IMG/VR virus record: IMGVR_UViG_3300043358_000013
Span: 1 to 41,891 of that record
Source: a virus
Length of the DNA stretch: 41,891 nt
Direction: 5' to 3' (one strand)
The position numbers and the translations under genes were made by a program. Position 1 is the stretch's first letter. Each line of letters opens with the position of its first letter. Below are positions 2,022 to 41,891 of this stretch, piece after piece. The notes below the pieces were generated by a model, which had not been told where the DNA came from, ran no database searches, and saw nothing but the letters and a program-made list of their open reading frames with translations.

Positions 2022-2197
2022 GCCCGCTCGCCATCATCCTGATCGTGGTGTTGCTGATGGTGATGTTCGGCGGCTGGTGGGGCTACCGCGGCGGTCACTA
2101 CTACGCCGACAGCCCCTACTACGGGCCGGGCATCGGCATCGTCGGGCTGGTCATCCTGGTGCTGCTGGTTCTCTTACTGATGGGACGCATCGGATGA
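2018..2197 (+). CDS. Small two-helix membrane protein, DUF3309-like
   Basis: A 59-aa protein starting at GTG 2018 (MSPLAIILIVVLLMVMFGGW) and ending at 2197. Two hydrophobic segments (about residues 4-18 and 36-56) flank a Gly/Tyr/Trp-rich loop with SPYYGPG. This layout resembles the DUF3309 family of tiny bacterial membrane proteins. It overlaps the preceding stop and shares ATGA with the portal gene, so it belongs to the late operon. A membrane protein between terminase and portal is unusual. A role in lysis or host-envelope change is possible but not shown. Confidence 0.75.
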   Translation: MSPLAIILIVVLLMVMFGGWWGYRGGHYYADSPYYGPGIGIVGLVILVLLVLLLMGRIG

Positions 2198-4956
2198 GCG
2201 GCATTTTACCTCCCGGACTCGTGCCACCGCCCGGCCTGCGCCAGGGCGTTAACCCGATGGCGCCGCAGGTGGGTCAGCAGGGCATGACCCCGCCGCAGCA
2301 GGGCCTGCTGGCGCCCAACACGCAGAGCTACGGCGCCCCCCCGCTGCCACCGATCGAGGGGCTGGTGCGCCCGATGGGCCAGAGACCCACGGACCATCAG
2401 GTGATTGCGACGTTGTTGCCCAGGCGCAAAGACGAGGACATCCCGGACGACCCGACCGACGACCTGCCGCCGGAAATCCGGCCTTATGCGCTGGGCCTGC
2501 GTCCTAGCGTGCAGCCATCCTCGACCCCGTGGGTGCAGGAGGTCGTTTACGCTCGACTCGGCAAAGAGGACAGCGAGATTGCCGAGATCAACAGGTATTA
2601 TTTTGGTATCGCGCGAAACTATGACGAGGAACTGAGCAACCAGAGGGTTACGGCGTCGGAATATTACAACGGTAAGGGCTTCGGCGACGAACCGGCGTTA
2701 AAGGGTCGTTCTCAGTTGGTGATGACTGTTGTTAGGGATACGATTCGTTCGACACTCCCAAGCCTGCTGCGCGTGTTCACCGGCGTCGAGGACCCGGTGC
2801 ATTTCGAGCCGATCAGCAGCGAGATATCCGGCAACGACAAGCTGGCGACGATGCTAAGCCGCCAAGCTACCGACTACGCCCGCTGGGCGCTGTTCGTGGC
2901 CAACCCCGGCTGGTCGATCCTGCACGATGCGCTGCTCGATGCGCTCACCCGCAAAGCCGGCTGGGTGCGTTGGTCGTGGGGCAAGAAGCAGCAGATCCGC
3001 ACCGAGGTGGCCGAGGGCCTCATCCTGCCGCAACTGCAAATGCTGCTCGCCGAGCCGGGCATCGAGGCGCAACGCATCGTACGCCGACCGATGACCAGGG
3101 TCGAGCAGGAGGCGATGGCCAAGACGCCCGAAGGCCAGATGTATCTGGGCCAAGGCGGGCCAGCGGAATACTGGAGCGCCACCATCACACGCAGCGTGCA
3201 GCAGGCGTGGCCCATCGTTGAATCGGTGCCGTCCGAATGCGTGTGGGTGGTGTCCGACGCCTCGACGGTGAAGGAAGCGCGCGGTGTTTTTCACGTCAGG
3301 GACGTATCCGCCTCGGACCTGATCGAGATGGGGTTGGATGAGCACGCGGTGCTGCGTGCTGGTGGTTCAGCGCCCACGACGCAGTGGCGGCGCGAGGCGA
3401 TCGCCCGTGACAGTGCATCAGGGCACCACATGCACGGCGGGCCACCCAACGACCGCAGCATGGGCATGATCCGCTATATCGAAGGCTGGATCAGGTGCGA
3501 CGCCGACAACGACCACAAGGCGGAGCTGCTGCACACCCACAGCCTCGGCGACGACTGCCGTCTGGTGCAGTGGGAGCGCACCGACGAGATCCCCTTGTCG
3601 TGCTTCACGCCTTACCGCGAGCCGGGGCGGATCATCGGGTCGTCTGTGTCCGACATGGTGATGGACCTGCAACGCCTGCAGTCCAGGGTGATGCGCGCGA
3701 CGCTCGATAGCCTCGGGCAGGCGATGTACCCGCGGACCGTGATCACCCTCGGTCAGGTGAACATGTCCGACGTGCGCCAGACCGCGATCGGCAGCATTAT
3801 CCGCGTTGCACAGCAGGGCGCCGTGCAGGAGCTCGTGAAGCCGTTCGCCGGGGCAGCGGCGCTGCCGATCATGCAGTTGCTCGAGGGCGTGCGTGAATCA
3901 CGTACTGGCATCACCCGCGCCTCCCAGGGCCTCACCGTCGACGAACTCCAGAGCACCGCGCCGATCGCCGTGTCGCAGCAGACATCCGCCGCGCAGGACC
4001 GGCTCGACATGATGGCGCGCACCTTGGCCGAAACCGGCTTGGCGCCGCTCTATTCGGGACTCCTGCGCATGCTCGCCAAGCAGCAGGACCGGCCCAACGT
4101 CATCCGCATCCGGGGCGAGTGGATATCGATCGATCCCAGAGCGCTGGGCACGATGTGGGAAGCCGCGGTCGAGGTCGGCGGCAAGGGTATGCCGATGGAG
4201 CGCCTCGCCATGCTCGCCCAGATCGCCGGTAAGCAGGAACAGATCATCACCAACTACGGCCTGCACAACCCGCTGGTCGGCGTGCCCGAGTATCGCAACA
4301 CGCTGGCGCGCATGCTGGAGACCGCCAACATCGCCGACGTCAGCAACTACTTCAAAGAACTGCCCGACGACTGGCAGCCGCCGCCGCCCAACCAGGGGCC
4401 AACGCCGGAACAGGTGCTGGCCATGGTGCAGCAGCAGAAGACCGCCGCTGATTTGGAGACGGACAGGGCGAAAGCCCAAACGGATAGATCCAAGGCGCTG
4501 TCGGACGACGATCGCGAGCGGGATAAGGCGGCGCTGGACGCATGGGTTGAGCTTTGGAAGATCGGCGCACAGTTCGGCACGCCTGTTCCGAGCCTCGACG
4601 AGCTACGCGCGGCGATGCAGCCAGACCAGCCCAACCTTGGCCTCATCGGCGACCTGCCGCCGCCTACATCCCCGCAGCAGCCGGCAACCGGTGTGCAGGG
4701 GCCGCAGCAGCCCAAGCCGGGGCCAGCCTCGCCGCTGATGGGGATGGCGCCGGGACAGGGCGGAGGCCTGGGGGCCCAGCGTCCGCAGGCGCCGGTGGCG
4801 CCGCCGGTAGGCTCCACCCCGCCCGACACCGCTCATATGGTTCGCCAGGCGCTCGCGACCGGTAACTTACCGACGACATACGGCCAGATCGCCGATCGGG
4901 CGGTGGCCGGCAACATCGCTGGCATGGGTGGGCCATCGGTCAGGCCGGGCGCATGA
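2194..4956 (+). CDS. Portal (head-tail connector) protein
   Basis: A 920-aa protein; ATG 2194 (MSGILPPGLVPPPG) overlaps the previous stop as ATGA. The first 115 residues are Pro/Gln-rich. The central part carries the portal-like core with RSQLVMTVVRDTIRSTLPSL, then ARWALFVANPGWSILHDALLDALT, as in large podoviral (P22-like) portals that form the dodecameric ring through which DNA is packaged and ejected. Residues about 740-790 are charged and helical (DLETDRAKAQTDRSKALSDDDRE), suiting the barrel/coiled part. The last 130 residues are again Pro/Gln/Gly-rich. Length and position right after terL fit. Assignment is by pattern, not by alignment. Confidence 0.85.
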   Translation: MSGILPPGLVPPPGLRQGVNPMAPQVGQQGMTPPQQGLLAPNTQSYGAPPLPPIEGLVRPMGQRPTDHQVIATLLPRRKDEDIPDDPTDDLPPEIRPYALGLRPSVQPSSTPWVQEVVYARLGKEDSEIAEINRYYFGIARNYDEELSNQRVTASEYYNGKGFGDEPALKGRSQLVMTVVRDTIRSTLPSLLRVFTGVEDPVHFEPISSEISGNDKLATMLSRQATDYARWALFVANPGWSILHDALLDALTRKAGWVRWSWGKKQQIRTEVAEGLILPQLQMLLAEPGIEAQRIVRRPMTRVEQEAMAKTPEGQMYLGQGGPAEYWSATITRSVQQAWPIVESVPSECVWVVSDASTVKEARGVFHVRDVSASDLIEMGLDEHAVLRAGGSAPTTQWRREAIARDSASGHHMHGGPPNDRSMGMIRYIEGWIRCDADNDHKAELLHTHSLGDDCRLVQWERTDEIPLSCFTPYREPGRIIGSSVSDMVMDLQRLQSRVMRATLDSLGQAMYPRTVITLGQVNMSDVRQTAIGSIIRVAQQGAVQELVKPFAGAAALPIMQLLEGVRESRTGITRASQGLTVDELQSTAPIAVSQQTSAAQDRLDMMARTLAETGLAPLYSGLLRMLAKQQDRPNVIRIRGEWISIDPRALGTMWEAAVEVGGKGMPMERLAMLAQIAGKQEQIITNYGLHNPLVGVPEYRNTLARMLETANIADVSNYFKELPDDWQPPPPNQGPTPEQVLAMVQQQKTAADLETDRAKAQTDRSKALSDDDRERDKAALDAWVELWKIGAQFGTPVPSLDELRAAMQPDQPNLGLIGDLPPPTSPQQPATGVQGPQQPKPGPASPLMGMAPGQGGGLGAQRPQAPVAPPVGSTPPDTAHMVRQALATGNLPTTYGQIADRAVAGNIAGMGGPSVRPGA

Positions 4957-5141
4957 GCGAGCAGACCGGAACGAAAGGACCAAACCTCGCCCCTAGGTTT
5001 GGCCACCTCCCCCCGAGGTTTGGAAATCTGCCATCCGCCAGATTCCGCCAAATTCCGCCAAATTCCGCCAGAGCTCCGGGAATATCGTCGGAAATCGCGC
5101 CAAATCGCTTCAAATCGCTCGAAATCGCTCGCCATGGGTGA
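4953..5141 (+). CDS. Possible small ORF spanning a 10-bp repeat tract
   Basis: A 62-aa reading frame whose ATG overlaps the portal stop (ATGA), ending at 5141 inside the start region of the next gene. It encodes two copies of PRFG(H/N)LP followed by a basic, Pro/Asn-rich stretch, because the DNA underneath is built of 21-bp and then 10-bp repeats. The coupled start argues for translation. The repeat-driven composition argues that it may be only a passively open frame. Confidence 0.4.
   Translation: MSEQTGTKGPNLAPRFGHLPPRFGNLPSARFRQIPPNSARAPGISSEIAPNRFKSLEIARHG
5031..5130. repeat. Phased 10-bp tandem repeats downstream of portal
   Basis: One hundred bases with a strict 10-bp register. Four units end in TCCGCCA (5031-5070, for example AATTCCGCCA), then two diverged units, then four units of the type CAAATCGCTC (5091-5130). 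Just upstream, two 21-bp copies contain AGGTTTGG. The array ends four bases before the start codon of the HTH gene at 5134. The 10-bp period is close to one helical turn, as in iterons or stacked operator sites; no function is shown. Confidence 0.8.
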
Positions 5142-5343: not shown

Positions 5344-5627
5344 ACTGGACTTTGGACCTCAATGCCGAGCCCAAAAGCATCATGGAGGCCCGTCAGGAGG
5401 CTTCCATGGCCCAAAGAGTGCTGAATGACGCGGTTTTCGTCGATTTCCTCGACCAAATGCAGCATGCAGCGTCAAATACCGCGCTTTTCGATGATAAATT
5501 GGAGGTTCGGGACGCCGCACGGGTGAAGGTGCTCACCATTGCCGAGCTTAAGGCCCGGCTTCAGGAGGCGGCACGCCGCCCGGTGCAGGACGCCGAGGAC
5601 CAGGAGCAAGCGACCGTACATGAATAG
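5340..5627 (+). CDS. Hypothetical late protein before scaffold
   Basis: A 95-aa acidic protein not recognised as a named family. It starts at ATG 5340 overlapping the previous TGA, and ends 13 bases before the scaffold ATG. The sequence is mostly helical: EARQEASMAQRVLNDAVFVD, then FLDQMQHAASNTALFDD, then LTIAELKARLQEAARR. No signal peptide or membrane segment. Small helical proteins between portal and scaffold are common in podoviruses and may take part in head assembly; this is positional inference. Confidence 0.7.
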   Translation: MNWTLDLNAEPKSIMEARQEASMAQRVLNDAVFVDFLDQMQHAASNTALFDDKLEVRDAARVKVLTIAELKARLQEAARRPVQDAEDQEQATVHE

Positions 5628-5640
5628 CTAGGGGGACCAA

Positions 5641-6738
5641 ATGAGCGAAACCACCGGCCCGGCCTCGCCAGCCGCGCCAAGCGACAGCACCAACAGCGAC
5701 TTCGCGCCCGCACCCGACACCCGGCCCGAGCTCAGCGTCAGCGATGCGGCGCGGATGCTGCGGAACCACCGCCGCGCCCAGCCAGCACCGCCGCCTGGGG
5801 ATAACTCCGGGGGTTACGGGCACAACTCAGGAGAAGCGCCACCGCCAGAACCCGCCAGACCCCGCCCAACCCCGCCAGAATCCGCCCAACCCGGCGGCAT
5901 GTCGGCGCTGGAGCGGGCGTTGGGGTTGGACTCTGGTGACGCACCTGACGCGGGCGACAGTGTTTCACGTGAAACACCCGGCAGTACGCCTGCCCAAACC
6001 CCGGCAGAAATCGAACTGGAGGGCCGGCGTTACACACAGGCCGAGTTGGCTGCCGCAGTGCGTCAGGCGCAGGACTACACGCAGAAGACGCAGCAGCTAT
6101 CCGCCCAGGCACGCCAGCTACAGGCGCAGCAGCAGGCGCTTGCCGCCGCCCTGCCGCTGATCCAGCCCGAGATTGAGGCGCTGCAACGCCGGCTGGCCGA
6201 GGCGCCACGCCCCGACCCGCAACTGCGGCAGACCGACCCGGCGGCGTACTGGGACCAGTTGGCGACCTGGCAGGACGCCCAGATCGAGCACCAGCGCGTG
6301 CTGGCGATTCAGACGCATCAAGCCCAGGCGCGCGAGGCGGCGGTGGCCCAGGCCGTCGATCAGGCGAATCACGAGCTTGCCCAGAAATACCCGTTCTGGT
6401 CAGACCCGCAGCAAAGGCGGGAGATCCAGCAGGACATCATCAGTTGGGCGCGCACGCAGGGCTACACCGATCAGGAACTGCACGGCCTGACCAGCGCAAA
6501 ATATTTAGAAACACTTTTCAAAGCCTCCCTGTATGACCGCTACCAAGCCCGCATTAAGCCCCAGGCGACGCAGCCGAGCGTCGGGCATGCGCCGCGCGGG
6601 ACCGCTCCACCGCCGCCACCTGCCGCGCGGGTCAGGGAGGCGTCCGAGGCGTTTAACGAGCGGCCTTCTGTGAATAATGCTGCTGCACTGATCGGCGCTC
6701 GTCGAGCAGGAAGACCAAACGGGCATACGCAGTGGTGA
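5641..6738 (+). CDS. Head scaffolding protein
   Basis: A 365-aa acidic protein with a good ribosome site (AGGGGG) before ATG 5641. Residues 1-115 are low complexity (Pro/Ala/Ser). Residues about 120-200 form a Gln/Ala-rich coiled coil (QTQQ, QLQAQQQALAAALP). The C-terminal part (ELAQKYPFWSDPQQRREIQQ, GLTSAKYLETLFKASLYDRY) resembles scaffold proteins of podoviruses and siphoviruses that nucleate capsid assembly and then leave the head. Position between portal and capsid fits. The gene also contains a 10-bp tandem repeat (5843-5892) and an exact parS palindrome (5961-5976), which encodes VSRET. Confidence 0.8.
   Translation: MSETTGPASPAAPSDSTNSDFAPAPDTRPELSVSDAARMLRNHRRAQPAPPPGDNSGGYGHNSGEAPPPEPARPRPTPPESAQPGGMSALERALGLDSGDAPDAGDSVSRETPGSTPAQTPAEIELEGRRYTQAELAAAVRQAQDYTQKTQQLSAQARQLQAQQQALAAALPLIQPEIEALQRRLAEAPRPDPQLRQTDPAAYWDQLATWQDAQIEHQRVLAIQTHQAQAREAAVAQAVDQANHELAQKYPFWSDPQQRREIQQDIISWARTQGYTDQELHGLTSAKYLETLFKASLYDRYQARIKPQATQPSVGHAPRGTAPPPPPAARVREASEAFNERPSVNNAAALIGARRAGRPNGHTQW
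5843..5892. repeat. Five 10-bp tandem repeats inside scaffold gene
   Basis: Five uninterrupted 10-bp units of the type CGCCAGAACC / CGCCCAACCC. They encode part of the Pro-rich linker of the scaffold protein. The period is not a multiple of three, so each unit is read in a different frame from the previous one. The units resemble the GCC-rich pentamers at 32.0-32.7 kb. Confidence 0.8.
5961..5976. promoter_or_regulatory. Exact chromosomal-type parS site (copy 1)
   Basis: TGTTTCACGTGAAACA, the perfect 16-bp palindrome that is the consensus loading site for bacterial chromosomal ParB (Spo0J family). It is extended to an 18-bp palindrome by the flanking G and C, and preceded by CA exactly as in copy 2 at 40401-40416. 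It lies inside the scaffold gene and is read as VSRET. No parA or parB is present in the window, so a host ParB would have to be the ligand (inference). Confidence 0.9.
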
Positions 6739-6910
6739 CCGAGGATTCCCCGGCCACCACCCGTTACTGCCCCGCCAAGGCGTGCCGCGCCAAACCGCGA
6801 CGCGCCGCGCGCTGCCATGCCACGTCTATGTTGCCCTAATGCATCTTTATCCGCAATGGACACACGCAGTGGTAACGCGCCACACTGGCAACATTATCAG
6901 GGGGGCTCAC

Positions 6911-8082: not shown

Positions 8083-9069
8083 ATGGCATCACCGCCGACG
8101 ATGGCAAGTGCGCCAACTAATACATATACGCAACAGCTAGCCTCCGGCACCGTCCATGAGGACGTTTCGGATGTGATTTATCGGATTGATCCCGAGGAGA
8201 CCCCGTTCGTCTCGGCGCTGCCGCAGGTCGGTAGCAAGCAGATTTTGACTGAATGGCTCGTCCAGACGCTCAATAGCGCTGCAGACGTGCCGCAGCCCGA
8301 GGGCTTCACCGCGGTCATCAGCCCGTCAGTGAAACCGGTTCGCATGTCGAATGTCTGCCAGATATTCGCGCGCACCGTGGGCGTGTCCGGCACCCTGCGC
8401 GTGGTCGACAGCATCGGCGGCGAGGACGAATACAACCGCCAGCTGGTCATGCGCGGTATCGAGCTCAAGCGCGACCTGGAGCTCGTGAGCACGAGCAACA
8501 TCCCCAAGGCGGCGACCGATCCGCGCCACATGGCGGGCATGCCGACGTTCTGCTCCAACGGCAGCGTCGGCGCAGGCGGCACCATGCCGGTGGGCGACGG
8601 CACCACCGCGGCGGTGCCCGGTACTGCGCGCGATCTGACGCTCACTCTCGTCAACGACGCCATGCAGGCGGCGTGGAACGCAGGCGGTTCGCCGACCATC
8701 GGCCTGATGAGTGGCAACATCAAAAACTACTTCAGCACGCTGTCGCAGGGCGGCACCGGCAACCCGATCGTGTCGCAAAATATCCAGTCCACGACTGCAT
8801 CCCAGGAAGTCACCATCATGGGTGCGGTGGACGTTTACCGGACCAACTTCGGCACGCTCGATCTGGCGCCCGACCGGTTCATGCCGCCCAACATGATACT
8901 GCTGATCACCCGCGATTACGTGGAACTGGCACCGTTGCCTGAGCGCAATATGGTGGAACAACCGTATGCCCGTACGGGCGACAACACTCAAGGCGGAATA
9001 ATCTTTGAGGGAACACTGCGGGTTACAGCTCCCAAGGCACATAGCGCCATTTTCGCGCTCAATCAATGA
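8083..9069 (+). CDS. Major capsid protein, SU10/DUF5309 type
   Basis: A 328-aa protein with a GGGAG ribosome site. The N-terminus NTYTQQLASGTVHEDVSDVI followed by YRIDPEETPFVSALPQVG, and later EWLVQTLNSAADVPQPEGF, match the HK97-fold family known from phage SU10 (DUF5309). GIELKRDLELVSTSN and the MAGMPTF loop also fit, and so does the C-terminal YVELAPLPERN..EGTLRVTAPKAHSAI. It should form the icosahedral shell around the scaffold. Length is typical for the family. It is followed three bases later by the antisense HNH gene. Confidence 0.87.
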   Translation: MASPPTMASAPTNTYTQQLASGTVHEDVSDVIYRIDPEETPFVSALPQVGSKQILTEWLVQTLNSAADVPQPEGFTAVISPSVKPVRMSNVCQIFARTVGVSGTLRVVDSIGGEDEYNRQLVMRGIELKRDLELVSTSNIPKAATDPRHMAGMPTFCSNGSVGAGGTMPVGDGTTAAVPGTARDLTLTLVNDAMQAAWNAGGSPTIGLMSGNIKNYFSTLSQGGTGNPIVSQNIQSTTASQEVTIMGAVDVYRTNFGTLDLAPDRFMPPNMILLITRDYVELAPLPERNMVEQPYARTGDNTQGGIIFEGTLRVTAPKAHSAIFALNQ

Positions 9070-16979: not shown

Positions 16980-17917
16980 ATGGGAATCCTAACCATGTTC
17001 CACGAACTCCCCATGCAGCCGCTCTGCAGCGGCCTGTCGTGCGATCACAGCTTCGCCGAGAGTGCGATAACTACCGATCCAATAGCGTTTTCCATTCGCC
17101 GCAATGTTCACACAGAACTGCGTGCAGTTGCCGCGCTGCCGATAGTCAATGCCTTTGACCCCAGAGGATGTGCTGCGCGTTGTGCCTCTACGGTTCTGCG
17201 CGCTTTGGTAGATGTTGACCGCCCGCAGATTAGCGATCCGATTGTTTTGGGTGTCTCTGTCGATGTGGTCGATCATCTTGGGAACCGGCTTTCCATAGAC
17301 CATCGCCCAAGCGACGCGATGTGCCTTATAGAAAATCCCAGAGAAGCGGAGATTCCAGTAGTTGCTGCGATCTCTAGTGGGGCTTCCTGCGATCTTCCCG
17401 GCCCAAATGTTGTTCCACCGTGTATGGGTCCGTTGGTCCGGAAAGTGATGGCGAGGCCTTGTGCGCCATGTGAAGATACCGGTGTCCGGGTTGTAATCCA
17501 CGCACTCGCGAATGAACGCGACTTCGGGCAACTTCTTGACAGCCATGACGATCCTCCGGTGGGTCGTGTGGTTAGAGGCGACGCCGGTGCTTCCAACACC
17601 GCGTCGCTTCGTTTGTAGCACAGGAGGCGAAAATTACAGTACTTGCTGGGACGATTCGCGCATCATCCACCGGCAACCCAGACTGGAAGGCGTGCGACGG
17701 CAGCACGGTCTACGTCGCCGAGAACAAGGTCAGCGGCGTCACTGTGCTGCCGCGCGCCGCTCCAGCGCCAGGGTTTGGTGACCACCGCGACTGGCGGCGC
17801 CGCGTCGGCACCAAATATGGCTGGACCGGCCTCGGGCCGAATGGCTTTCGCTTCCGCCTGCCGGTCGCTGGGGACGGGAATTATGTGAAGACGAATGATG
17901 ATACAGCGGACACTTGA
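16980..17917 (+). pseudogene. Small virion gene split near its 5' end by an HNH cassette
   Basis: A ribosome site (GGAG) and ATG 16980 begin MGI, then the antisense HNH cassette intervenes. The rest of the gene resumes at about 17636 with TVLAGTIRASSTGNPDWKAC and runs in frame to TGA 17917, giving a coherent acidic/aromatic protein of about 93 residues (VYVAENKVSGVTVLPRAAPA, FGDHRDWRRRVGTKYGWTG, end [12 protein letters not shown]). No ATG, GTG or TTG lies in frame at the resumed 5' end. An AGGAGG stands at 17622-17627 ahead of an ATT codon (17633) that could start weak translation. So the gene is either broken or rescued by a non-standard start. Confidence 0.6.
16989..17546 (-). CDS. HNH-AP2 endonuclease, antisense in late operon (cassette 2)
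   Basis: A 185-aa protein. ATG 17546 is chosen because GGAGG precedes it and MAVKKLPEVAFIRECVDYNP aligns with the start of cassette 1. The HNH core is KMIDHIDRDTQNNRIANLRA. A C-terminal AP2-type domain follows (SGVKGIDYRQRGNCTQFCVN, NIAANGKRYWIGSYRTLGEA, end AAERLHGEF). It should cut an empty copy of the site it occupies, as HNH-AP2 homing enzymes do. Its upstream leader has a strong hairpin (GCGACGC...GCGTCGC). The paralogue at 9072-9617 shares the layout throughout. Confidence 0.92.
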   Translation of the reverse strand: MAVKKLPEVAFIRECVDYNPDTGIFTWRTRPRHHFPDQRTHTRWNNIWAGKIAGSPTRDRSNYWNLRFSGIFYKAHRVAWAMVYGKPVPKMIDHIDRDTQNNRIANLRAVNIYQSAQNRRGTTRSTSSGVKGIDYRQRGNCTQFCVNIAANGKRYWIGSYRTLGEAVIARQAAAERLHGEFVEHG

Positions 17918-17919
17918 TC

Positions 17920-18591
17920 ATGCCTGATTGGCAGTCTCTCACTATCCCAGAACCTAACAGCGGGTGCCTGCTGTGGGAGGGTTCTGTCACGCGTGGCTAT
18001 CCCCGTCTCGGCAATGCCCAGGTGCGGCATCTCGTGTGGGAAGCGACGAATGGGCCACTGCCTGACGGTATGATTATCAGCCCACAGTGTGACAATCGAT
18101 TCTGTGTCAGTGCTGATCATCTGTTCTCGCGGCTGAAGAGGACGACCAGCGACAACTGGCAGGACCACGCCATCCCCGAGCCGATGAGCGGATGCTGGCT
18201 GTGGGAAGGCATGATCGACGGTCGCGGCTACGGCAAGTATGTTGTGGCCGATAGGCACCGGCAGGCCCACCGGGTGGCGTGGGAGGCAACTAATGGCCCA
18301 GTGCCGGCGGGGCTTGTCGTCTGTCATCACTGCGACAACCGGCTGTGTGTGAACCCTGATCATCTGTTCGCCGGCACGCAGGCTGAGAACAATCTGGATC
18401 GCGATCGGAAGGGGCGAAACGGACAACTCAACAAGACGCACTGTCGGCGCGGTCACGCATACACGCCAGAGAACACATATCTGCAGCATAGGGCGGGCGG
18501 GATCAGTCGGTCGTGCAAGCAATGCACGCTGGATAGCAATGCCAAGATCAAAGCGCGTCAGCAGGCAGAAAGGGTAAGCCGCAATGCCTGA
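17920..18591 (+). CDS. Tandem HNH_3 protein with one inactivated domain
   Basis: A 223-aa protein; ATG 17920 is preferred, with TTG 17914 possible. It contains two HNH_3 modules in tandem. Module 1 (about residues 8-70) has [12 protein letters not shown] and [15 protein letters not shown]. Module 2 (about 84-160) has [12 protein letters not shown] and [15 protein letters not shown]. Module 1 has lost the HH pair (PQ) and the Asn (Ser), so it is probably catalytically dead; module 2 has the full HH/N/H set. A C-terminal Cys/His-rich finger follows ([15 protein letters not shown] and SCKQC). Overlaps the collar gene by eight bases. Likely a homing enzyme whose dead copy may bind DNA. Confidence 0.88.
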
Positions 18592-28761: not shown

Positions 28762-28962
28762 CTAAAACTGTTCCGACTGAAACTGTTCCGGTCGCAGGAT
28801 CGCGGTCAATGTCCCGTCCTTGTCGAGCACGCTCAGCGCGAGCTCCAGGCGCAGCATCCTGCCGGACATCAAAAACATGCTTTGCCTCAGGTTGGCTAAA
28901 TCCTCCTCCAGCCTGATAACGTGCGCCACCAGCGCGTAGCGGTCTGGCTTGTCGATCATCAC
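28762..28962 (-). CDS. Small hypothetical protein of recombination block
   Basis: A 66-aa protein from ATG 28962 (or 28959), overlapping the ERF stop. Helical, with DRYALVAHVIRLEEDLANLR and MLRLELALSVLDKDG. The end RPEQFQSEQF comes from an 11-bp direct repeat (AAACTGTTCCG) in the DNA. No family recognised. Downstream partner of the annealing-protein gene. Confidence 0.65.
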   Translation of the reverse strand: MMIDKPDRYALVAHVIRLEEDLANLRQSMFLMSGRMLRLELALSVLDKDGTLTAILRPEQFQSEQF

Positions 28963-29750
28963 AGGCCCTCTATGTCTTCGGAGGCGCTGGAACCGTCGTC
29001 CTTGGTCATCCAGTCAGCCATGACCTTGGAACGGAGCATCATGTAACGCTGGCGTGCGTCGCCATGCGGCAGGGCGGTGATCGCCGCCACGCCAGGGCGC
29101 CACTCCAGCAGCTTTCGCGCTTCGTCCGAGTCCATGATGCGCCCTGCGGCAGCTTCAAACTTGGCGATGGTCTCGCTGTGGTCGAACGGGTCCTTGCGAT
29201 CTACGCTAGGCGGTGACGGACGCTGAAGGCGCTGGGCTTCGCCGTCGTCATCGGTGGGATCGTCGGCCAGTACGATATTCAGGCACATCTGCAATAAATA
29301 GCGGCGGCAATAACTTATAGTGCTTCCCACCGCCTGCACCGGGGTCCGCGCCCGCTGAGCTATATCGACAGGGCTATCCAAATAATTCGTTTCGCTATAG
29401 CCGTCGCGATGGCTAACGGTGCAGGTGATGCGCATCCAGCCATCTTTTGGCGGCACATCGCAGCCGAAGCGGATGGACAGCCCGTGCGCTGAGTAGATGG
29501 GTCTAGCCGCTGCGTCGATGGCTTCTAGCGTGGCGTATTTACGATTGACGCCAGGGTTAACACGATCGCGCAGGACCGGGCCTATCTCCGCTTCTACGGA
29601 CGCCATTGCGGCGTTGAAAGCCCGCTTAGCCTGCTTGTCTTCGGCCTCCTGTTGCAAGCGCAGGAGTTCGGAAAACTTGTTCAGGTCAAATTCCGGTTCA
29701 CGCGCTGCGCGCTCAATGAACGACATAAGAGGGGAGAGTTCACTGCTCAT
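28959..29750 (-). CDS. erf: ERF-family single-strand annealing protein
   Basis: A 263-aa protein. ATG 29750 shares ATGA with the HNH stop; ATG 29765 is possible. The N-terminal two thirds match the ERF family: AKRAFNAAMASVEAEIGPVL, NRKYATLEAIDAAARPIYSA, HGLSIRFGCDVPP, then VSHRDGYSETNYLDSPVDI and GSTISYCRRYLLQMCLNIVL, then ADDPTDDDGEAQ. ERF proteins anneal complementary single strands during phage recombination and genome circularisation. The C-terminal 80 residues are a variable tail that often binds partners. Neighbours Gp157-like protein and an HNH enzyme fit a recombination block. Confidence 0.92.
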   Translation of the reverse strand: MSSELSPLMSFIERAAREPEFDLNKFSELLRLQQEAEDKQAKRAFNAAMASVEAEIGPVLRDRVNPGVNRKYATLEAIDAAARPIYSAHGLSIRFGCDVPPKDGWMRITCTVSHRDGYSETNYLDSPVDIAQRARTPVQAVGSTISYCRRYLLQMCLNIVLADDPTDDDGEAQRLQRPSPPSVDRKDPFDHSETIAKFEAAAGRIMDSDEARKLLEWRPGVAAITALPHGDARQRYMMLRSKVMADWMTKDDGSSASEDIEGL

Positions 29751-30310
29751 GGGAGATATTTCCATGTCGTGCCGGTTCGGATATTGCTGATTGCCGAGCG
29801 GCAAACACCAAAGTGCTTGGCGAGTGCCACGCCTGTTTCGGGGCTGGCGCGGATAAAAATCACGTCGGGTTCCGTAAGTTTCGCCCGTGGCTGAGGCCGG
29901 TCTTGTGGGCGGAAACGACCCTTCTCTATGCTGTCTTGAATGTTTTGGGCTGCGGTGCCGCGCCATAGATGAGCGGGATTGCAACAAGCCGGATTGTCGC
30001 ACGTATGGCAGACATCTAAGTCGCTGCTCCAATCGCCATCGGTTAAGGCGAGCGCCACGCGATGCGCTTTCATGACGCGGGTTTTCCACCGGACCGTGCC
30101 ATATCCATTGACCAGACTACCCAGCCATGGCCAGCAACCGTCCGGTTGTGATCGATCTACTCTGGCCCAGAACTCTCCAGCATAATCGTGCCGCACCCAA
30201 CGTGCCGACCCCAAACAGCTTCGGGAACAATATTTCCCGCCCCCCTTCCGCACTTCGGCTGGCCACGTCTTGAATGGCGTGCGGCAATGCTGACAGTTAA
30301 GCGTTATCAT
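29747..30310 (-). CDS. HNH endonuclease with N-terminal zinc finger
   Basis: A 187-aa protein from ATG 30310. Residues 5-35 have CQHC and CSRSC spaced as a zinc finger. The HNH_3 core is LDVCHTCDNPACCNPAHLW (HT/N/H with paired cysteines; the usual second His of HH is Thr). The C-terminal segment LTEPDVIFIRASPETGVALA, KHFGVCRSAISNIRTGTTWK is a helix-turn-helix like that of the HNH gene at 1060-1530. It lies between the Gp157-like and ERF genes and is coupled to both. Its leader (ACACAAGAGACAAGAGAC before ATG) resembles those at 34059 and 38502. Confidence 0.88.
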   Translation of the reverse strand: MITLNCQHCRTPFKTWPAEVRKGGGKYCSRSCLGSARWVRHDYAGEFWARVDRSQPDGCWPWLGSLVNGYGTVRWKTRVMKAHRVALALTDGDWSSDLDVCHTCDNPACCNPAHLWRGTAAQNIQDSIEKGRFRPQDRPQPRAKLTEPDVIFIRASPETGVALAKHFGVCRSAISNIRTGTTWKYLP

Positions 30311-30793: not shown

Positions 30794-30867
30794 CAAAATC
30801 TCCTTGCAGGTCGGCTTGGCAGAGCTTAACTAGGTAAAGTCTTATGCGAATGCAAGGAGAAAACAAC
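30794..30867. promoter_or_regulatory. Divergent control region with dyad ribosome sites
   Basis: TCTCCTTGCA (30799-30808) and TGCAAGGAGA (30851-30860) are perfect inverted copies; each contains the ribosome site of one of the two divergent genes. Between them a rightward TTGGCA (-35-like) is 18 bases from TCTTAT (-10-like). This is a natural place for the regulator encoded at 30868 to control both units (inference). Confidence 0.55.
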
Positions 30868-31104
30868 GTGCGATATGTTTACAAGAGCCCGCGTATGGAG
30901 CGCGAGCGGGACGCGGTGCTAGGGCCTCTGCTGACCCAGCGCGGCATGGTCACGTTCTTGGCGCGTGAATTGGGCATCTCCAAAGCCGCGGTGGCGCAGT
31001 GGTACAGCATCCCGGACCAGCATATTGCGGCGATCAGCAAGCTATTGGACATCCCGCAGTATCAACTGCGCCAGCAGCCGCGCCGTCCGAAGGTGGCGGC
31101 GTGA
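30868..31104 (+). CDS. Cro/YdaS-like helix-turn-helix regulator
   Basis: A 78-aa basic protein. GTG 30868 is chosen because AAGGAG precedes it; the upstream ATG 30844 lacks one. The helix-turn-helix MVTFLARELGISKAAVAQWY, SIPDQHIAAISKLLDIPQYQ is of the Cro/YdaS kind. It should bind operators near its own promoter and the divergent Gp157/ERF unit. No partner repressor of CI type is visible, and no integrase, so a role in an early-late switch is more likely than classic lysogeny. Confidence 0.78.
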   Translation: MRYVYKSPRMERERDAVLGPLLTQRGMVTFLARELGISKAAVAQWYSIPDQHIAAISKLLDIPQYQLRQQPRRPKVAA

Positions 31105-31759: not shown

Positions 31760-31982
31760 GGACGAGCACGACCCGGCGACGATCTGGACCGGTTGGATCA
31801 AGCGGGGCGAGTTGCCTGGCACGATCATTGGCCAATTGGTCGACCATTGGGGCTGGGTCGTCACCCTTGCTGGTGCGGTGGACCCGGAGGGTGGCGGCTA
31901 CCAACTTCTGGGGCGTCTCGGACCAGTGCCTGAGCCGCTGCGGGTCGAGGCGATCGACGACGGACCAGACAAAGACGGGTGA
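31743..31982 (+). CDS. Small hypothetical protein before pentamer tract
   Basis: A 79-aa protein if GTG 31743 is used (ATG 31731 would add four residues). Contains PATIWTGWIKRGELPGTIIG, QLVDHWGWVVTLAGAVDPEG and ends VEAIDDGPDKDG. It overlaps the previous gene in a different frame. No family recognised. The GCCNN tract begins about 13 bases after its stop. Confidence 0.55.
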   Translation: MSGKTEDEHDPATIWTGWIKRGELPGTIIGQLVDHWGWVVTLAGAVDPEGGGYQLLGRLGPVPEPLRVEAIDDGPDKDG

Positions 31983-31994
31983 GGCCGAGGCCCC

Positions 31995-32728
31995 ACCCGT
32001 CCAAGCCTGCCGTGCCCCGCCCCGCCGTGCCTTGCCCCGCCCAGCCTGACCACGCCTGCCGGGCCTTGCCGCGCCTCGTCCCGCCGGGCCCTGCCGTGCC
32101 TGACCGCGCCTGCCGCGTCTTGCCGAGCCGTGCCTGGCCCGTCCGAGCCAAGCCGTGCCTGCCCCGCCTTACCGGGCCCTGCCCCGACCCGCCGCGTCCA
32201 GCCATGCCGTGCCTGCCATGCCGAGCCGTGCCGCGACGGGACTTGCCGGGTCCTTCCAAGCCCTGCCCAGCCTGCCAAGCCACGCCGGGCCAAGCCTGCC
32301 ATGCCACGTCTTGCCGTGCCCCGCCGAGACCCGCCTCGCCTGTCCCCGCCTCGCCTGCCCCGCCGCGCCGCGCCACTCCGCGCCCTGCCCTGCCAAGCCC
32401 GACCGGGCCTGACCGGGCCTGCCCTGCCAAGCCACGCCCCGCCGCGTCCAGCCATGACGAGCCAAGCCGGGCCTGCCAAGCCACGCCCCGCCGCGTCCAG
32501 CCATGACGAGCCAAGCCTGCCCTGCCCTGCCTAGCCCGTCCGCGCCGCGCCGAGCCGGGACGAGCCTGCCCCGCCATGCCTTGCCGCGCCGAGCCCAGCC
32601 GTGCCGGGCCAAGCCGGGCCTGCCAAGCCAGGACCTTCCATGCCTTGCCTTGCCTAGCCAAGCCTGCCCAGCCTTGCCGTGCCAGTCCCTGGCAGGCCGT
32701 GCCGAGCCCGGCCGTGCCGAGCCTGCCA
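31995..32728. repeat. Degenerate GCCNN pentanucleotide tract between convergent genes
   Basis: About 730 bases made almost wholly of five-base units of the form GCCNN (for example GCCGT, GCCTT, GCCAA, GCCTG), with occasional four-base steps at CCTGCC that shift the phase. The variable pair includes many of the sixteen dinucleotides. A 45-base block at 32424-32468 is repeated exactly at 32473-32517 (49-base offset). Three frames on each strand stay open for long stretches simply because GCCNN rarely makes a stop; I treat none as a gene. The tract fills the space between the convergent genes ending at 31982 and 32731. Confidence 0.9.
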
Positions 32729-32730
32729 TG

Positions 32731-33174
32731 TCACCGCTTGCGCGGTGTCTTCCCACCCTTGGGTGGTCCCTTTCTGGCGGCATCCGCCGCCGCCCAAACC
32801 CGATCAAGCTCCGTCAAAGCCTGATAGCGCTCTTGCATCCTTTCCAACTCACGCAGCGCATCTTGCAGCAGCACCGTGCGCAAATCAGGCGTGTTCATCA
32901 CACTGTTGATGTGCCGATATCCACCACCACCAACTCGGTCGATGCTGAGCGACACGTATTGCCGCGTATGGTGGACCGGCTCGACAAACACCTGGATCAA
33001 CTGCCGCACCTGCTGGATGCGGTATTGCTCGCCGGCAATTGCATCGTCCCACTCCAACTCGGCATGCAACGCCGAACTGGGATGCGCGCGCGCCCACTCC
33101 ACCGCAGCCTTCGGCTGGATCAGACCGCCGCGCTCCAGCCGCAGCAGTTCGCTGGCAACATTCTCCCGGTTCAT
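32731..33174 (-). CDS. Hypothetical leftward protein
   Basis: A 147-aa protein from ATG 33174, coupled by ATGA to its upstream neighbour. Sequence includes VASELLRLERGGLIQPKAAV, EWARAHPSSALHAELEWDDA and LQDALRELERMQERYQALTE, with a lysine/arginine-rich end (KGPPKGGKTPRKR). Helical with a short central beta region (QVFVEPVHHTRQYVSLSIDR). I do not recognise a family. Encoded with the next gene as a unit, perhaps DNA metabolism by neighbourhood. Its stop touches the pentamer tract. Confidence 0.72.
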   Translation of the reverse strand: MNRENVASELLRLERGGLIQPKAAVEWARAHPSSALHAELEWDDAIAGEQYRIQQVRQLIQVFVEPVHHTRQYVSLSIDRVGGGGYRHINSVMNTPDLRTVLLQDALRELERMQERYQALTELDRVWAAADAARKGPPKGGKTPRKR

Positions 33175-34614: not shown

Positions 34615-35415
34615 ATGTCCGATACCCCCGAAACATCCACAGAAGCAAGCTTCGTCCCATCGGCTGACGATGCGTTGACCATGGCCACCAACCTCGCCCG
34701 CAACTGTGGGTGGGCGGTGTTCCCGTGCTCCGTAACCAAGGCGCCCGCCATCCCCGGACCGGGCGGCTACAAGCATGCCACCAAAGACCCGGACGAGATC
34801 AAGGCCTTGTGGCGCCGTCACCCGGCCCCGCTGATCGGCGTCGCCACCGGCAGCGTGTCTGGCATCTGGGTGCTCGACATCGACGTGAAGCACCCAGAGG
34901 CGGTTGACTGGTGGATGGCGCACAATCGCCTGCTGCTGCCGACCCTGGCGTACAGGACGCGATCGGGCGGGGTGCATTGCTACTACCGCGACGCCGCCGG
35001 CCTGACCAACAGCACCAGCCGCCCGGTGCGTGGCATCGATGTGCGCGGCGAGGGCGGCTACGTCATCCACTGGTTCGCCGCCGGGCTGGAGTGTCTCGAC
35101 CATTCGCCACCGGCACCGTGGCCAGCATGGCTGCGCCGCCGCGTGGAGCCTCCTGTGGCGCCTCCAGCGGCTGAGCGGGATGCATGGAGCGGCGACCCTG
35201 ACGCCGGCCTGCGCGGGCTTCTGGACAAGCTGGCGGGGGCCGCAGAGGGTGGGCGCAATGACATGCTGTTCTGGGCCGCCTGCCGATTGTTCAGCAGAGG
35301 CCTGAAAGCCCGCGAGGTCGAGGCCTTGCTGGTGCCTATTGCCGTCAGCACGGGGCTCGCCGACCCCGAAGCCAGGAGAACCATCGCCAGCGCCGCCAAC
35401 AGGGGGACCAAATGA
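34615..35415 (+). CDS. Bifunctional primase-polymerase (Prim-Pol) protein
   Basis: A 266-aa protein of the AEP/Prim-Pol family that primes DNA synthesis. N-terminal ATNLARNCGWAVFPCSVTKA, PAIPGPGGYKHATKD is the family entry. The catalytic set is visible: WVLDIDVKH (Asp 88 and 90), TRSGGVHCYY (His 121) and RGIDVRGEGGYV (Asp 142). The C-terminal part (LRGLLDKLAGAAEGGRNDML, FWAACRLFSRGLKAREVEAL) is the helical primase-C extension. No polymerase gene is present, so host polymerase should extend the primers. Coupled to the helicase gene at 35417 (one-base gap). Confidence 0.92.
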   Translation: MSDTPETSTEASFVPSADDALTMATNLARNCGWAVFPCSVTKAPAIPGPGGYKHATKDPDEIKALWRRHPAPLIGVATGSVSGIWVLDIDVKHPEAVDWWMAHNRLLLPTLAYRTRSGGVHCYYRDAAGLTNSTSRPVRGIDVRGEGGYVIHWFAAGLECLDHSPPAPWPAWLRRRVEPPVAPPAAERDAWSGDPDAGLRGLLDKLAGAAEGGRNDMLFWAACRLFSRGLKAREVEALLVPIAVSTGLADPEARRTIASAANRGTK

Positions 35416-35416
35416 C

Positions 35417-36664
35417 ATGAGCGCAAACGGCCCAGGCGCCGACTGGGTAGGCCCAGGCACGGGCAGCAGGACCAATGGCGCCACCGCGCCCCCTGTGAGC
35501 GGCGACCTATGGCGCTGGATCGATCCTGCCCTCCTGCCGCCCCGCCCGTGGCTCCTAGGGACGGTGCTGATGCGCGGGCAGACTACCCTGCTCGGCTCGC
35601 CCGGAGGCACCGGGAAGACCGCCTGGGCGATCGCAGCGGCCCTGGCAGTGATCACCGGACGGAAGGATATCCTTGGCCTGCACAGCTTCGTCCAGGGCAA
35701 CGTCTGGTTCGTCACCCTGGAAGACGACCGCACCGAGATCCAGAGGCGCATCGCCGCCGCCATGATGCAGCACGGCGTACTGCCCGGTGACATCACCGGC
35801 AGGCTCTACCTCACCGATGGCGTGCTCAAGCTGGTGGACTACGAGCCGCGCACGCGCGCCGCTCAACCCACCCCTAGCGTCGAAGATTGCAAGGATTTTA
35901 TCCGCGATAACAACATATTACTCACCATCATTGATCCTCTGGTGAAGGCGCACAGCGTCGACGGCAGCAGCAATGACGCGATGGACGTACTGATGTCGGC
36001 GTCCAACGAGATCGGGCGCGACACCCAGTGTTCGATGTTGGTGCCGTGCCACTTCCGCAAGGGCGGCGACCTCGACACCGATGGGCGCGATCTGTTCCGC
36101 GGCGCCTCCTCGTTGGTCGACGGCTCCCGCATCGCCCGCGGCATGCAGCAGATGACCGACGCTGAGGCCAAGGGCTTTGGCATGGACGAGGACAGGCGCA
36201 CGGCCTTCGCTCGCATGGTCGATATCAAGTCGAACATGGCGCCCAAGGCGCAGGCCACCGACTGGTACGAACTGGTGCCGGTCGCCCTGGGCAATACCGC
36301 AGTCGATCCAGCCTATCCGGCTGGCGATTCGGTGCAGGCGATCAAACGCTGGGACCCGCCTGAACTGTTCGGCGGCATGGACCATCCTACCATGGCCGCG
36401 ATCTTTGCCGACCTGGACGATCAGACGCAGGTCTGGTCGGCGGGCCGAGGCCGGCAGCGACAGTGGGCCGGGGACAGCATCGTCCGCCACGCGGGCAAGA
36501 GCATCGATCAGGCCGGCAGCATCCTCAGCCAGTGGACCAAGGCCGGCGTGGTCTACGTGGTCACCCATAGGGTCGGCGGGCACGACCGCCAAAGGTTGGT
36601 CCTGGACCGCGCCAGAGCCGACGCAGTCCTGCGCGATCTGCCCTCGTCATACTCGGCACCCTAG
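35417..36664 (+). CDS. RepA-like SF4 replicative helicase
   Basis: A 415-aa AAA/RecA-fold protein. Walker A GSPGGTGKT at residues 60-68, then VWFVTLEDDRTEIQRRI (KaiC/RepA type), Walker B LLTIIDPLVKAHSVDGS with Asp at about 173, and the conserved HFRKGGD and FRGASSLVDGSRIARGM of hexameric RepA helicases. The C-terminal 130 residues form a winged-helix-like end (GDSIVRHAGKSIDQAGSILS, QWTKAGVVYVVTHR). Works with the Prim-Pol protein at the replication fork. The final codons already contain the first copy of the AGTATGACG repeat. Confidence 0.9.
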   Translation: MSANGPGADWVGPGTGSRTNGATAPPVSGDLWRWIDPALLPPRPWLLGTVLMRGQTTLLGSPGGTGKTAWAIAAALAVITGRKDILGLHSFVQGNVWFVTLEDDRTEIQRRIAAAMMQHGVLPGDITGRLYLTDGVLKLVDYEPRTRAAQPTPSVEDCKDFIRDNNILLTIIDPLVKAHSVDGSSNDAMDVLMSASNEIGRDTQCSMLVPCHFRKGGDLDTDGRDLFRGASSLVDGSRIARGMQQMTDAEAKGFGMDEDRRTAFARMVDIKSNMAPKAQATDWYELVPVALGNTAVDPAYPAGDSVQAIKRWDPPELFGGMDHPTMAAIFADLDDQTQVWSAGRGRQRQWAGDSIVRHAGKSIDQAGSILSQWTKAGVVYVVTHRVGGHDRQRLVLDRARADAVLRDLPSSYSAP

Positions 36665-37290: not shown

Positions 37291-37695
37291 GTGCTGATGG
37301 GCGATCTAGTCCCGACTGCTAGCAAATCTGTCGAGCATCTGTGGAAGCCTGGGCAATCCGGCAACCCAAAGGGCCGACCTCGCACGCCGCACGATCTGCC
37401 GGCAATGTGCCGCGAGCACACGCCAGAGGCCGTGGCAAAGCTGGTGGAGATCATGCGCTCTGACGACCATGGCAAGGCGCTGAACGCCATCCAGCAGTTG
37501 CTCGATCGTGGTTGGGGTAGACCTGTGACCCCGATCGTGGACGAGACCGAGGGGACCAGCTTGACGTTGTTGCATTTGATTGCGGCGCGGCGTGTTGCCG
37601 AAACGTTGCAAGCCGTGGCGGAGGGGAAAACCGAGAACGAATCGGGCGACTCCTCCAAGCCTGTGGTTGATTATAGTGTTCCTGCCCTGGAATAG
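37291..37695 (+). CDS. DUF5681-like protein, possible packaging-associated
   Basis: A 134-aa protein from GTG 37291 (ATG 37297 possible). The N-terminal motif WKPGQSGNPKGRPRTPHDLP is the DUF5681 signature, found in phage and prophage proteins near terminase genes. Then a helical body (EAVAKLVEIMRSDDHGKALN, AIQQLLDRGWGRPVTPI) and an acidic tail. A small-terminase or DNA-binding role is possible by analogy only. It is separated from terL by about 3.6 kb in the circular map. Confidence 0.7.
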   Translation: MLMGDLVPTASKSVEHLWKPGQSGNPKGRPRTPHDLPAMCREHTPEAVAKLVEIMRSDDHGKALNAIQQLLDRGWGRPVTPIVDETEGTSLTLLHLIAARRVAETLQAVAEGKTENESGDSSKPVVDYSVPALE

Positions 37696-38929: not shown

Positions 38930-39027
38930 TGGCAATGGCAGCCAGGCTGCTGCTGCTCCTGGCCCTCTACCTGGGCGCGCTCTGGTTTGGCGGCTACGTG
39001 TTCTGGCTGGCAGGCGCCATCCGCTAG
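38926..39027 (+). CDS. Tiny membrane protein
   Basis: A 33-aa protein MMAMAARLLLLLALYLGALW followed by FGGYVFWLAGAIR, overlapping its upstream neighbour (ATGATG). One membrane helix covering most of its length. Its TAG stop overlaps the antisense stop of the large gene at 39024 (CTAG). May act with 38810-38929 as a pair of membrane peptides. Confidence 0.6.
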   Translation: MMAMAARLLLLLALYLGALWFGGYVFWLAGAIR

Positions 39028-41070: not shown

Positions 41071-41292
41071 ATGTCGATGATGTCGATGCCGCACACGCAC
41101 GAGGTGCGTTACCGCGAGCTCAGCTACGCGCAGAAGCGGGCGATCCGCGAGCAGCTGGAGGCTTCGTTCGACTGGGACGACGGGAAGTACGCCGAGGGCG
41201 CGTCTGACCACAGCATCGCCGCCGAGGTGGGCATCCCGTGGTCGCTGATCCGCTACGTGCGTGAACGCGACTATGGCCACCTCGCCCCATGA
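41071..41292 (+). CDS. Small HTH protein just before terL, candidate small terminase
   Basis: A 73-aa protein from ATG 41071 (AGGGGGAG ribosome site). RYRELSYAQKRAIREQLEAS is a charged helix. SDHSIAAEVGIPWSLIRYVR is a helix-turn-helix. The stop shares ATGA with the terL start. Position and DNA-binding fold suggest the small terminase that recognises phage DNA, though at 73 residues it is shorter than usual and the oligomerisation part is not obvious. First gene of the late operon. Confidence 0.65.
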   Translation: MSMMSMPHTHEVRYRELSYAQKRAIREQLEASFDWDDGKYAEGASDHSIAAEVGIPWSLIRYVRERDYGHLAP

Positions 41293-41891
41293 CGCTGCAC
41301 CTGCAACATGATATACTGGCGCCAGATACGAGCGATTCTACTTCGGGCGCTGCGTCTCCTCCCAACGACGCACCGCCCGATTTTTCCGCCTTCGACTTCG
41401 CGCTGCAGCGCTACAACCGCGCCCCCATCGCCTTTGTGAGGGAAGTGCTCCTGCAGGAGCCGGATGCGTGGCAGATCGAGGCCCTGCGTGGCTTCGCCAG
41501 GGGCTTCACCCGGCACAGCATCAAAAGTGGTCACGGTGTCGGAAAGAGCTGCTTGGCTGCGTGGGTTGTTTTGTGGTTTTGTTGCACCCGTGCACCCTTT
41601 AAGTGTGCGCTGACCGCACCATCCGCGCCCCAGCTGTTCGATGTCCTATGGCCCGAGCTCCTCAAGTGGATGAGCCGTATGCCCGAGCAGTGGCAGGCGC
41701 TGTGGGATGTGACCGCCGACCACATTACCCTCAAGAGTGACCGCGAGTGCTTCGTTACGGCGAGGACATCCCGCCCCGAGACCCCCGAGGCGATGGCCGG
41801 CTTGCACAGTGCCAACATACTCTTGGTCGCGGACGAAGCATCGGGCATCGACGAGAAGGTCTACGAGGCTGCCAGCGGCTCAATGAGTAGT
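41289..41891 (+). CDS. terL: Terminase large subunit, N-terminal part
   Basis: The first 201 residues of the packaging ATPase; the rest is at 2-1063. After a Ser/Pro/Asp-rich lead (MTLHLQHDILAPDTSDSTSG), the Walker A variant SGHGVGKS is at residues 80-87 and Walker B ILLVADEA ends with Asp182-Glu183. HITLKSDRECFVTARTSRPE fits the adenine/coupling region. ATG 41289 overlaps the previous stop (ATGA). The last 178 bases repeat the window start, with synonymous differences after the first 126. Confidence 0.93.
   Translation, partial: MTLHLQHDILAPDTSDSTSGAASPPNDAPPDFSAFDFALQRYNRAPIAFVREVLLQEPDAWQIEALRGFARGFTRHSIKSGHGVGKSCLAAWVVLWFCCTRAPFKCALTAPSAPQLFDVLWPELLKWMSRMPEQWQALWDVTADHITLKSDRECFVTARTSRPETPEAMAGLHSANILLVADEASGIDEKVYEAASGSMSS
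41714..41891. repeat. Terminal redundancy of the contig (right copy)
   Basis: Right-hand partner of 1-178; see the left copy. It encodes the same 59 residues of TerL, including the Walker B motif. Confidence 0.9.

Follow-up and report, generated by a model that had tools for sequence, protein, structure and literature searches.

Exact chromosomal-type parS words in a phage genome and its relatives, and their possible use as loading sites for host ParB

The DNA analysed here (the window) is the entire virus record IMGVR_UViG_3300043358_000013, with a length of 41,891 bp. Its first and last 178 bases (1-178 and 41714-41891) match at 93%, with about 125 leading bases identical and scattered changes after them, as if two strains had met at the assembly junction. 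Since the record ends overlap and the terminase gene crosses the junction, the map is circular or permuted, and the genome size is about 41.7 kb. The gene order from the junction is terminase, HNH, portal, scaffold and head genes, followed downstream by tail and DNA-ejection-like genes, and then by ERF, primase and a helicase-like gene. The terminase large subunit is divided by the record ends into an N-terminal part (41289-41891, + strand, open at the record end; phrog_2, E 6.2e-13) and a C-terminal part (80-1063, + strand; phrog_2, E 6.4e-27). It is followed by the portal protein (2077-4956, + strand; phrog_1216, E 1.5e-102), the head scaffolding protein (5641-6738, + strand; phrog_3927, E 1.1e-22) and the major head protein (8083-9069, + strand; phrog_1328, E 5e-72). 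Two HNH endonuclease genes, at 1060-1530 and 17914-18591, share related DNA and are possibly homing endonucleases.

Farther along, the map carries an ERF-type single-strand annealing protein (28959-30089, - strand; PF04404, phrog_155), a weak Cro/YdaS-like helix-turn-helix protein (30844-31104, + strand; below Pfam cut-offs), Prim-Pol primase and AAA_25 helicase-like genes for the phage's own replication (34615-36664, + strand), and a DUF5681 protein (37291-37695, + strand), whose gene is without a parS word in the window. A gene for a 660-aa protein (39024-41006, - strand) has no Pfam or PHROG match. Only two relatives of this protein were found outside IMG/VR, namely EBPR siphovirus 1 gp39 (a weak match) and a Skermanella plasmid protein annotated as calcium-binding.

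The chromosomal centromere word parS is short and exact, and its reader, ParB, occurs in most bacteria. As an earlier note on this DNA had claimed, the window contains the 16-bp palindrome TGTTTCACGTGAAACA exactly twice, at 5961-5976 (site 1, in the N-terminal part of the scaffolding gene) and at 40401-40416 (site 2, in the 660-aa protein gene). The note had also described a CA before each site and an extended palindrome; in both cases CAG directly precedes the site, and the 18-bp palindrome GTGTTTCACGTGAAACAC is seen at 5960-5977 and 40400-40417. Both words are read as VSRET, one in the scaffolding frame (+) and the other in the frame 39024-41006 (-). No third site resembling TGTTTCACGTGAAACA was found in the window at up to three mismatches, or at up to two mismatches of the degenerate form. 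In 100 dinucleotide shuffles, the mean was 0.08 sites at up to three mismatches, and only 1 of the 100 had two or more; the pair in the window is exact, which bears out the claim that two copies are not due to chance. The distance between the sites through the record junction is 7,273 bp and, as also claimed, they bracket the packaging and portal genes, with terminase and portal enclosed on the circular map.

The chromosomal parS consensus and the rule that TGTTTCACGTGAAACA or a word with up to two mismatches counts as parS are taken from the available part of PMC10197239. By this rule the window has two parS words, both exact. The 16-mer is identical to the bacterial chromosomal parS of that source; however, the words of the window stand on a phage genome, within phage genes and not near oriC. 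Since the 41.9-kb virus record has terminase, portal and head genes, each is a parS word on a phage rather than a chromosomal centromere.

The claim that the phage carries no parAB agrees with the profile searches, in which neither ParB_N (PF02195, at E up to 1) nor AAA_31/ParA (PF13614, the ParA model searched over the whole record) was detected in the window. With these two models, no self-contained ParABS system encoded by the phage was found. PF13614 was also missing from the eight relatives searched, over the sequence covered, and neither tyrosine integrase (PF00589) nor serine recombinase (PF00239) was detected in the window or in the covered sequence of the same relatives. ParB_N was found in one of the eight (contig G003 of locus L023), at 5598-5873 on the + strand, in a 687-aa frame that is perhaps a ParB-fold fusion protein of phage type; this relative is without a parS core at up to two mismatches.

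The absence of both integrase types from the window and the eight relatives, together with the weak Cro/YdaS-like gene, would fit a plasmid-like prophage, that is, an episomal lysogen inherited stably through the host ParABS. In mycobacteriophages such as RedRock and others, parABS replaces the integrase and the prophages are extrachromosomal, according to the accessible text of PMC7157519, so that partition of phage DNA by ParABS without an integrase has a precedent. However, phages of that type have their own ParA and ParB, and parS loci formed by repeats of another motif (PMC7157519, same part), whereas neither protein was found in the window. As lysogeny markers, the window thus offers no detected integrase and a regulator that is present but falls below Pfam cut-offs. 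The distant relatives of the window, moreover, include LUZ24-like phages (Bruynoghevirus) and other podoviruses that are presumably virulent; tblastn against cultured phages gave matches that were all below 60%, and megablast of window positions 1-25000 gave none. No close prophage was seen in two low-sensitivity scans of genome contigs, each with two short peptide patterns, of which the portal alignment returned no relative and the head-protein alignment one 26% match on a MAG contig. Overall, the idea of prophage partition is weakened and appears improbable.

To judge whether the words themselves are unusual, the 14-bp parS core was compared with 419 other palindromes, obtained by permuting the half-site, in 45 related contigs with a total of 639,677 bp, a set that leaves out the four distant loci L042-L045 and in which several contigs are partial. 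The core has 18 exact occurrences in three non-homologous places, in three genes, and every one of the 419 controls has none. At up to one mismatch the core has 23 occurrences in five places, and the best control has three in two places. Chance origin was rejected by the dinucleotide shuffles and these permuted palindromes. In addition, rare codons are used at both window sites, with a joint probability of 4.8e-5 per site for the VSRET codons under the window's own codon usage.

The earlier note had taken the common VSRET reading as a sign that DNA rather than protein was selected. This inference gains from the palindrome controls and the codon choice; the shared reading itself says little, as only two frames stay open through the palindrome. 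Of 69 parS occurrences within long open frames, counted over 120 IMG/VR stretches among the matches listed, 53 use the VSRET frame. VSRET as a protein motif was rejected, since siteless 660-aa orthologues read VTREQ, VSREQ, ISREQ, VDRQT, VTPAE or TTPAE at this place; a search of 24 ORFs for [VI][ST]RE[TSQ] gave two matches, both the parS sites. It appears from these comparisons of sequence that the parS words were kept or regained as DNA, and this view is supported. The opposite explanation, in which neutral words were inherited from one ancestor by chance or hitch-hiking, could draw on a site-bearing set that is closely related and mosaic in large part, and on half-site relics that indicate decay; yet three separate genes have the core, no control palindrome has an exact occurrence, and rare codons are used at both sites, which leaves this explanation hardly credible.

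Viral relatives were collected by portal (43 loci), by the 660-aa protein (19) and by scaffold (12), in overlapping sets. At site 1, among ten sequences that cover the place with a scaffold at least 85% identical, window included, the exact word is present in seven and a half-site relic alone in three (L012, L015 and L027); L016 and L017, whose scaffold sequences end before the site, were dropped from the count. The relics match CA[CT][GA]TGAAACA at the site-1 place. Eight distant scaffolds have no parS word there, and the scaffold gene of L031 has a core with two mismatches elsewhere in the gene. At site 2, among twenty sequences covering the place, window included (L013 and L040, which stop short of it, were dropped), the word is exact in nine, has one central mismatch in two (L011 and L041) and is absent from nine. 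The 660-aa protein gene is identical among the window, L003 and L004, and since many site-bearing sequences are near-identical, these counts are not independent events. A third placement is found in L025 and L029 (contig G006), distant relatives with portals 62% and 64% identical to that of the window, respectively, where the core lies towards the 3' end of their DUF5681-like gene. This exact 14-bp core is read as VSRET here too; in L024 it has one mismatch.

Close relatives therefore hold one, both or neither of the sites, and some hold half-site relics. Strict conservation is not supported, since close relatives such as L012 and G004 (a contig of L027, in a 41.6-kb record, with a portal 97% identical) have no core within two mismatches and site 2 is exact in 9 of 20; with the sites missing from such relatives, they are not essential. 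The earlier note had proposed a comparison with synonymous drift, in which synonymous changes at both sites in related phages would tell against it. The outcome went partly that way and is not decisive. Among six representatives, 48 of 333 five-codon windows with identical amino acids are also identical in nucleotides, so that the local conservation seen around site 2 in site-bearing sequences does not stand out by itself. In the trees, site-less and site-bearing lineages are intermixed and local topologies differ from whole-gene topologies, and by this sequence evidence they show a mosaic descent with gains or losses of sites. We read the parS words as a probably useful and dispensable trait that was repeatedly gained and lost in the family.

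Beyond the family, the 16-mer is present in at least 120 IMG/VR stretches and the 18-mer in at least 118. Two control palindromes that share dinucleotides and the CACGTG centre with the 16-mer gave 5 and 11 stretches. The parS totals are lower bounds, and the stretches, being parts of records, may include prophage flanks or host DNA. One site is present in 103, and two to five in 17, of the 120 stretches among the matches listed. ParB_N was detected in 4 of 39 long site-bearing records (three over the cut-off) and not in the other 35; this set consists of records of at least 15 kb from the first 80 of the 120 stretches among the matches listed.

Among cultured phages, BLAST with site 1 and its flanks matched 340 of 50,697 records at E up to 10, inexact matches included; by name, 93 of these are phages of Listeria, 63 of Microbacterium, 43 of Arthrobacter and 25 of Gordonia. 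Fourteen cultured phages were picked by hand, thirteen as BLAST hits and phi29 as the precedent, and their hosts are Gordonia, Arthrobacter, Microbacterium, Listeria, Lactobacillus and Bacillus. In their whole records, 11 have at least one exact 16-mer and 14 of 14 have a word with up to two mismatches, which, given the picking, is not a rate; a reversed control word was found in none of the 14, and ParB_N in two (one over the cut-off). Arthrobacter phage Ranunculus (L217) has three parS words, at 291, 1406 and 2501 (two exact and one with one mismatch), across its portal and capsid-maturation-protease genes, a placement resembling that around the packaging genes in the window. At up to two mismatches, Arthrobacter phage VroomVroom has six sites, and the two sites of Gordonia phage Woes lie between small genes; phage B103 has one exact site and one near site. 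Phages of the phi29 type and of the Listeria A511 type have the words as well; these phages, like those of the LUZ24 type, are taken to be virulent, and this speaks further against a plasmid-like prophage. A literature search in which subscription papers were thinly covered found, among the matches listed, no account of host-type parS in parAB-less phages as a general trait; phi29 is already a known case, and the distribution is seemingly broad.

The original report of the Spo0J-dependent entrapment of phi29 in spores is said to be that of Meijer et al. in 2005. The phi29 record has four one-mismatch copies of parS, TGTTTCACGTGGAACA, three of which lie inside annotated genes, and no ParB_N. 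It therefore resembles the window as a phage without ParB_N that carries host-type parS words. In the accessible part of PMC9437464, the phi29 genome is described as trapped in spores in dependence on Spo0J (ParB). The differences are that phi29 is a 19-kb phage of a spore former, with suppression by Spo0A as part of its case, whereas the window phage is about 41.7 kb and has portal, scaffold and head families of tailed phages; the phi29 sites are also one base off those of the window. Among the relatives, the variants of G010 and L024 change at the position (or its mirror) where the phi29 sites differ, and the one-mismatch variants of G009 and of L011/L041 change at other positions.

These variants bear on the possibility that the words merely resemble parS and bind a protein other than ParB, such as another DNA-binding protein, of the host or of the phage, or an enzyme of DNA modification. 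The palindrome centre CACGTG is generic and the changes in G009 and L011/L041 are unlike those of phi29, as such a binder would allow. However, the two control palindromes with the same centre and dinucleotides are rare in IMG/VR, and the G010 and L024 variants fall on the phi29 position or its mirror. A binder of this kind is very unlikely.

A second precedent is SGI1, in which two parS mimics borrow the parABS of the IncC plasmid (PMC10954446, as far as its available text goes). SGI1, too, is mobile and has two copies of parS, and it uses the partition proteins of another replicon, as the window phage would; it is unlike the window phage in being integrative, with parS of plasmid type, and in that binding, stability and incompatibility were shown for SGI1 in that text.

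The best explanation, held with a confidence that is evenly balanced, is that the two sites are putative host-type ParB loading sites, through which phage DNA would use the host partition or positioning machinery. By analogy, the evidence suggests that this phage and several relatives may borrow the host chromosome-sorting machinery, as reported for phi29. This reading is built on the exact words, the 18 cores in three places against 419 empty controls and the codon choice; on the excess in IMG/VR (at least 120 against 5 and 11) and the 14 picked cultured phages against the reversed control; on the third gene with a core in L025 and L029 and the lack of integrase in the window and eight relatives; and on the precedents of phi29 and SGI1, each as described in the available parts of PMC9437464 and PMC10954446. 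Against it stand the absence of sites from close relatives, the unexceptional conservation of site 2, counts that are not independent, the G009 and L011/L041 variants off the phi29 position, a functional phage precedent that concerns a spore former, and the fact that titration of ParB accounts for the same facts.

After loading at parS, ParB forms a closed CTP clamp and spreads (PMC12704722, available part), and Caulobacter ParB in E. coli spreads up to about 2 kb around the site (PMC5815017, available part). In the proposed scheme, host ParB-CTP would bind to the 16-bp word on phage DNA that has entered the cell, shut there into a clamp and move along the neighbouring DNA across the terminase-portal region, so that a partition complex may form beside the packaging genes. 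The ParB-marked genome would then resemble a chromosome origin as cargo for the host ParA gradient, pole anchors or SMC. We infer the binding, the spreading of the clamp and the benefit alike; the likeliest benefit would be positioning and retention of the phage genome in cells that escape immediate lysis, such as slow-growing, dividing or dormant hosts, comparable to phi29 with Spo0J.

The main rival to partition or positioning by host ParB is titration, in which parS copies on replicating phage DNA would act as a lure that draws ParB from oriC and blocks host segregation or division. It fits the same site data, and sites are present in phages presumed to be virulent. Extra parS carried on a plasmid lowered the viability of Caulobacter, by about 1000-fold with the strongest sites (PMC5815017, accessible text), and in the SGI1 case IncC plasmids become unstable when further copies of parS are present (PMC10954446, accessible text). 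On the other hand, a dedicated lure might carry many sites, and 103 of the 120 IMG/VR stretches among the matches listed have one; a virulent phage that kills in one cycle would probably gain little from a block of segregation. Titration is therefore possible, though rather doubtful. In a wider reading of host ParB loading, for which the chances seem equally divided, centromere mimicry would be a common phage strategy of convergent origin. Unrelated phages, virulent ones included, would time and again evolve exact host parS words within their genes and lose them, and the ParB clamps loaded on phage DNA in infection would either move it along with the origin or draw ParB away from the chromosome.

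Given how short and exact parS is, and that ParB reads it, few nucleotide changes would open the chromosome-sorting machinery to a phage. Should ParB load on the sites described here, what has been a single reported case (phi29) would become a general phage trait. Such a trait could be recognised from sequence and examined in cultured phages whose hosts are Bacillus, Gordonia, Arthrobacter and Microbacterium, and it would allow a clear test of what phages gain from ParB, whether retention, placement or damage to segregation.

Apart from the parS words, a tract of about 700 bp at 31979-32740 is dense in short GCC-bearing units, with up to 35 GCC per 200 nt and repeat copies offset by 10, 39, 44 and 49; a fixed 5-nt phase over 200 nt is not striking (maximum 11 per phase). 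Shorter runs of the GCC type are present at 5037-5074, 5834-5891 and 6767-6821, and the run at 5834-5891 lies immediately upstream of site 1.
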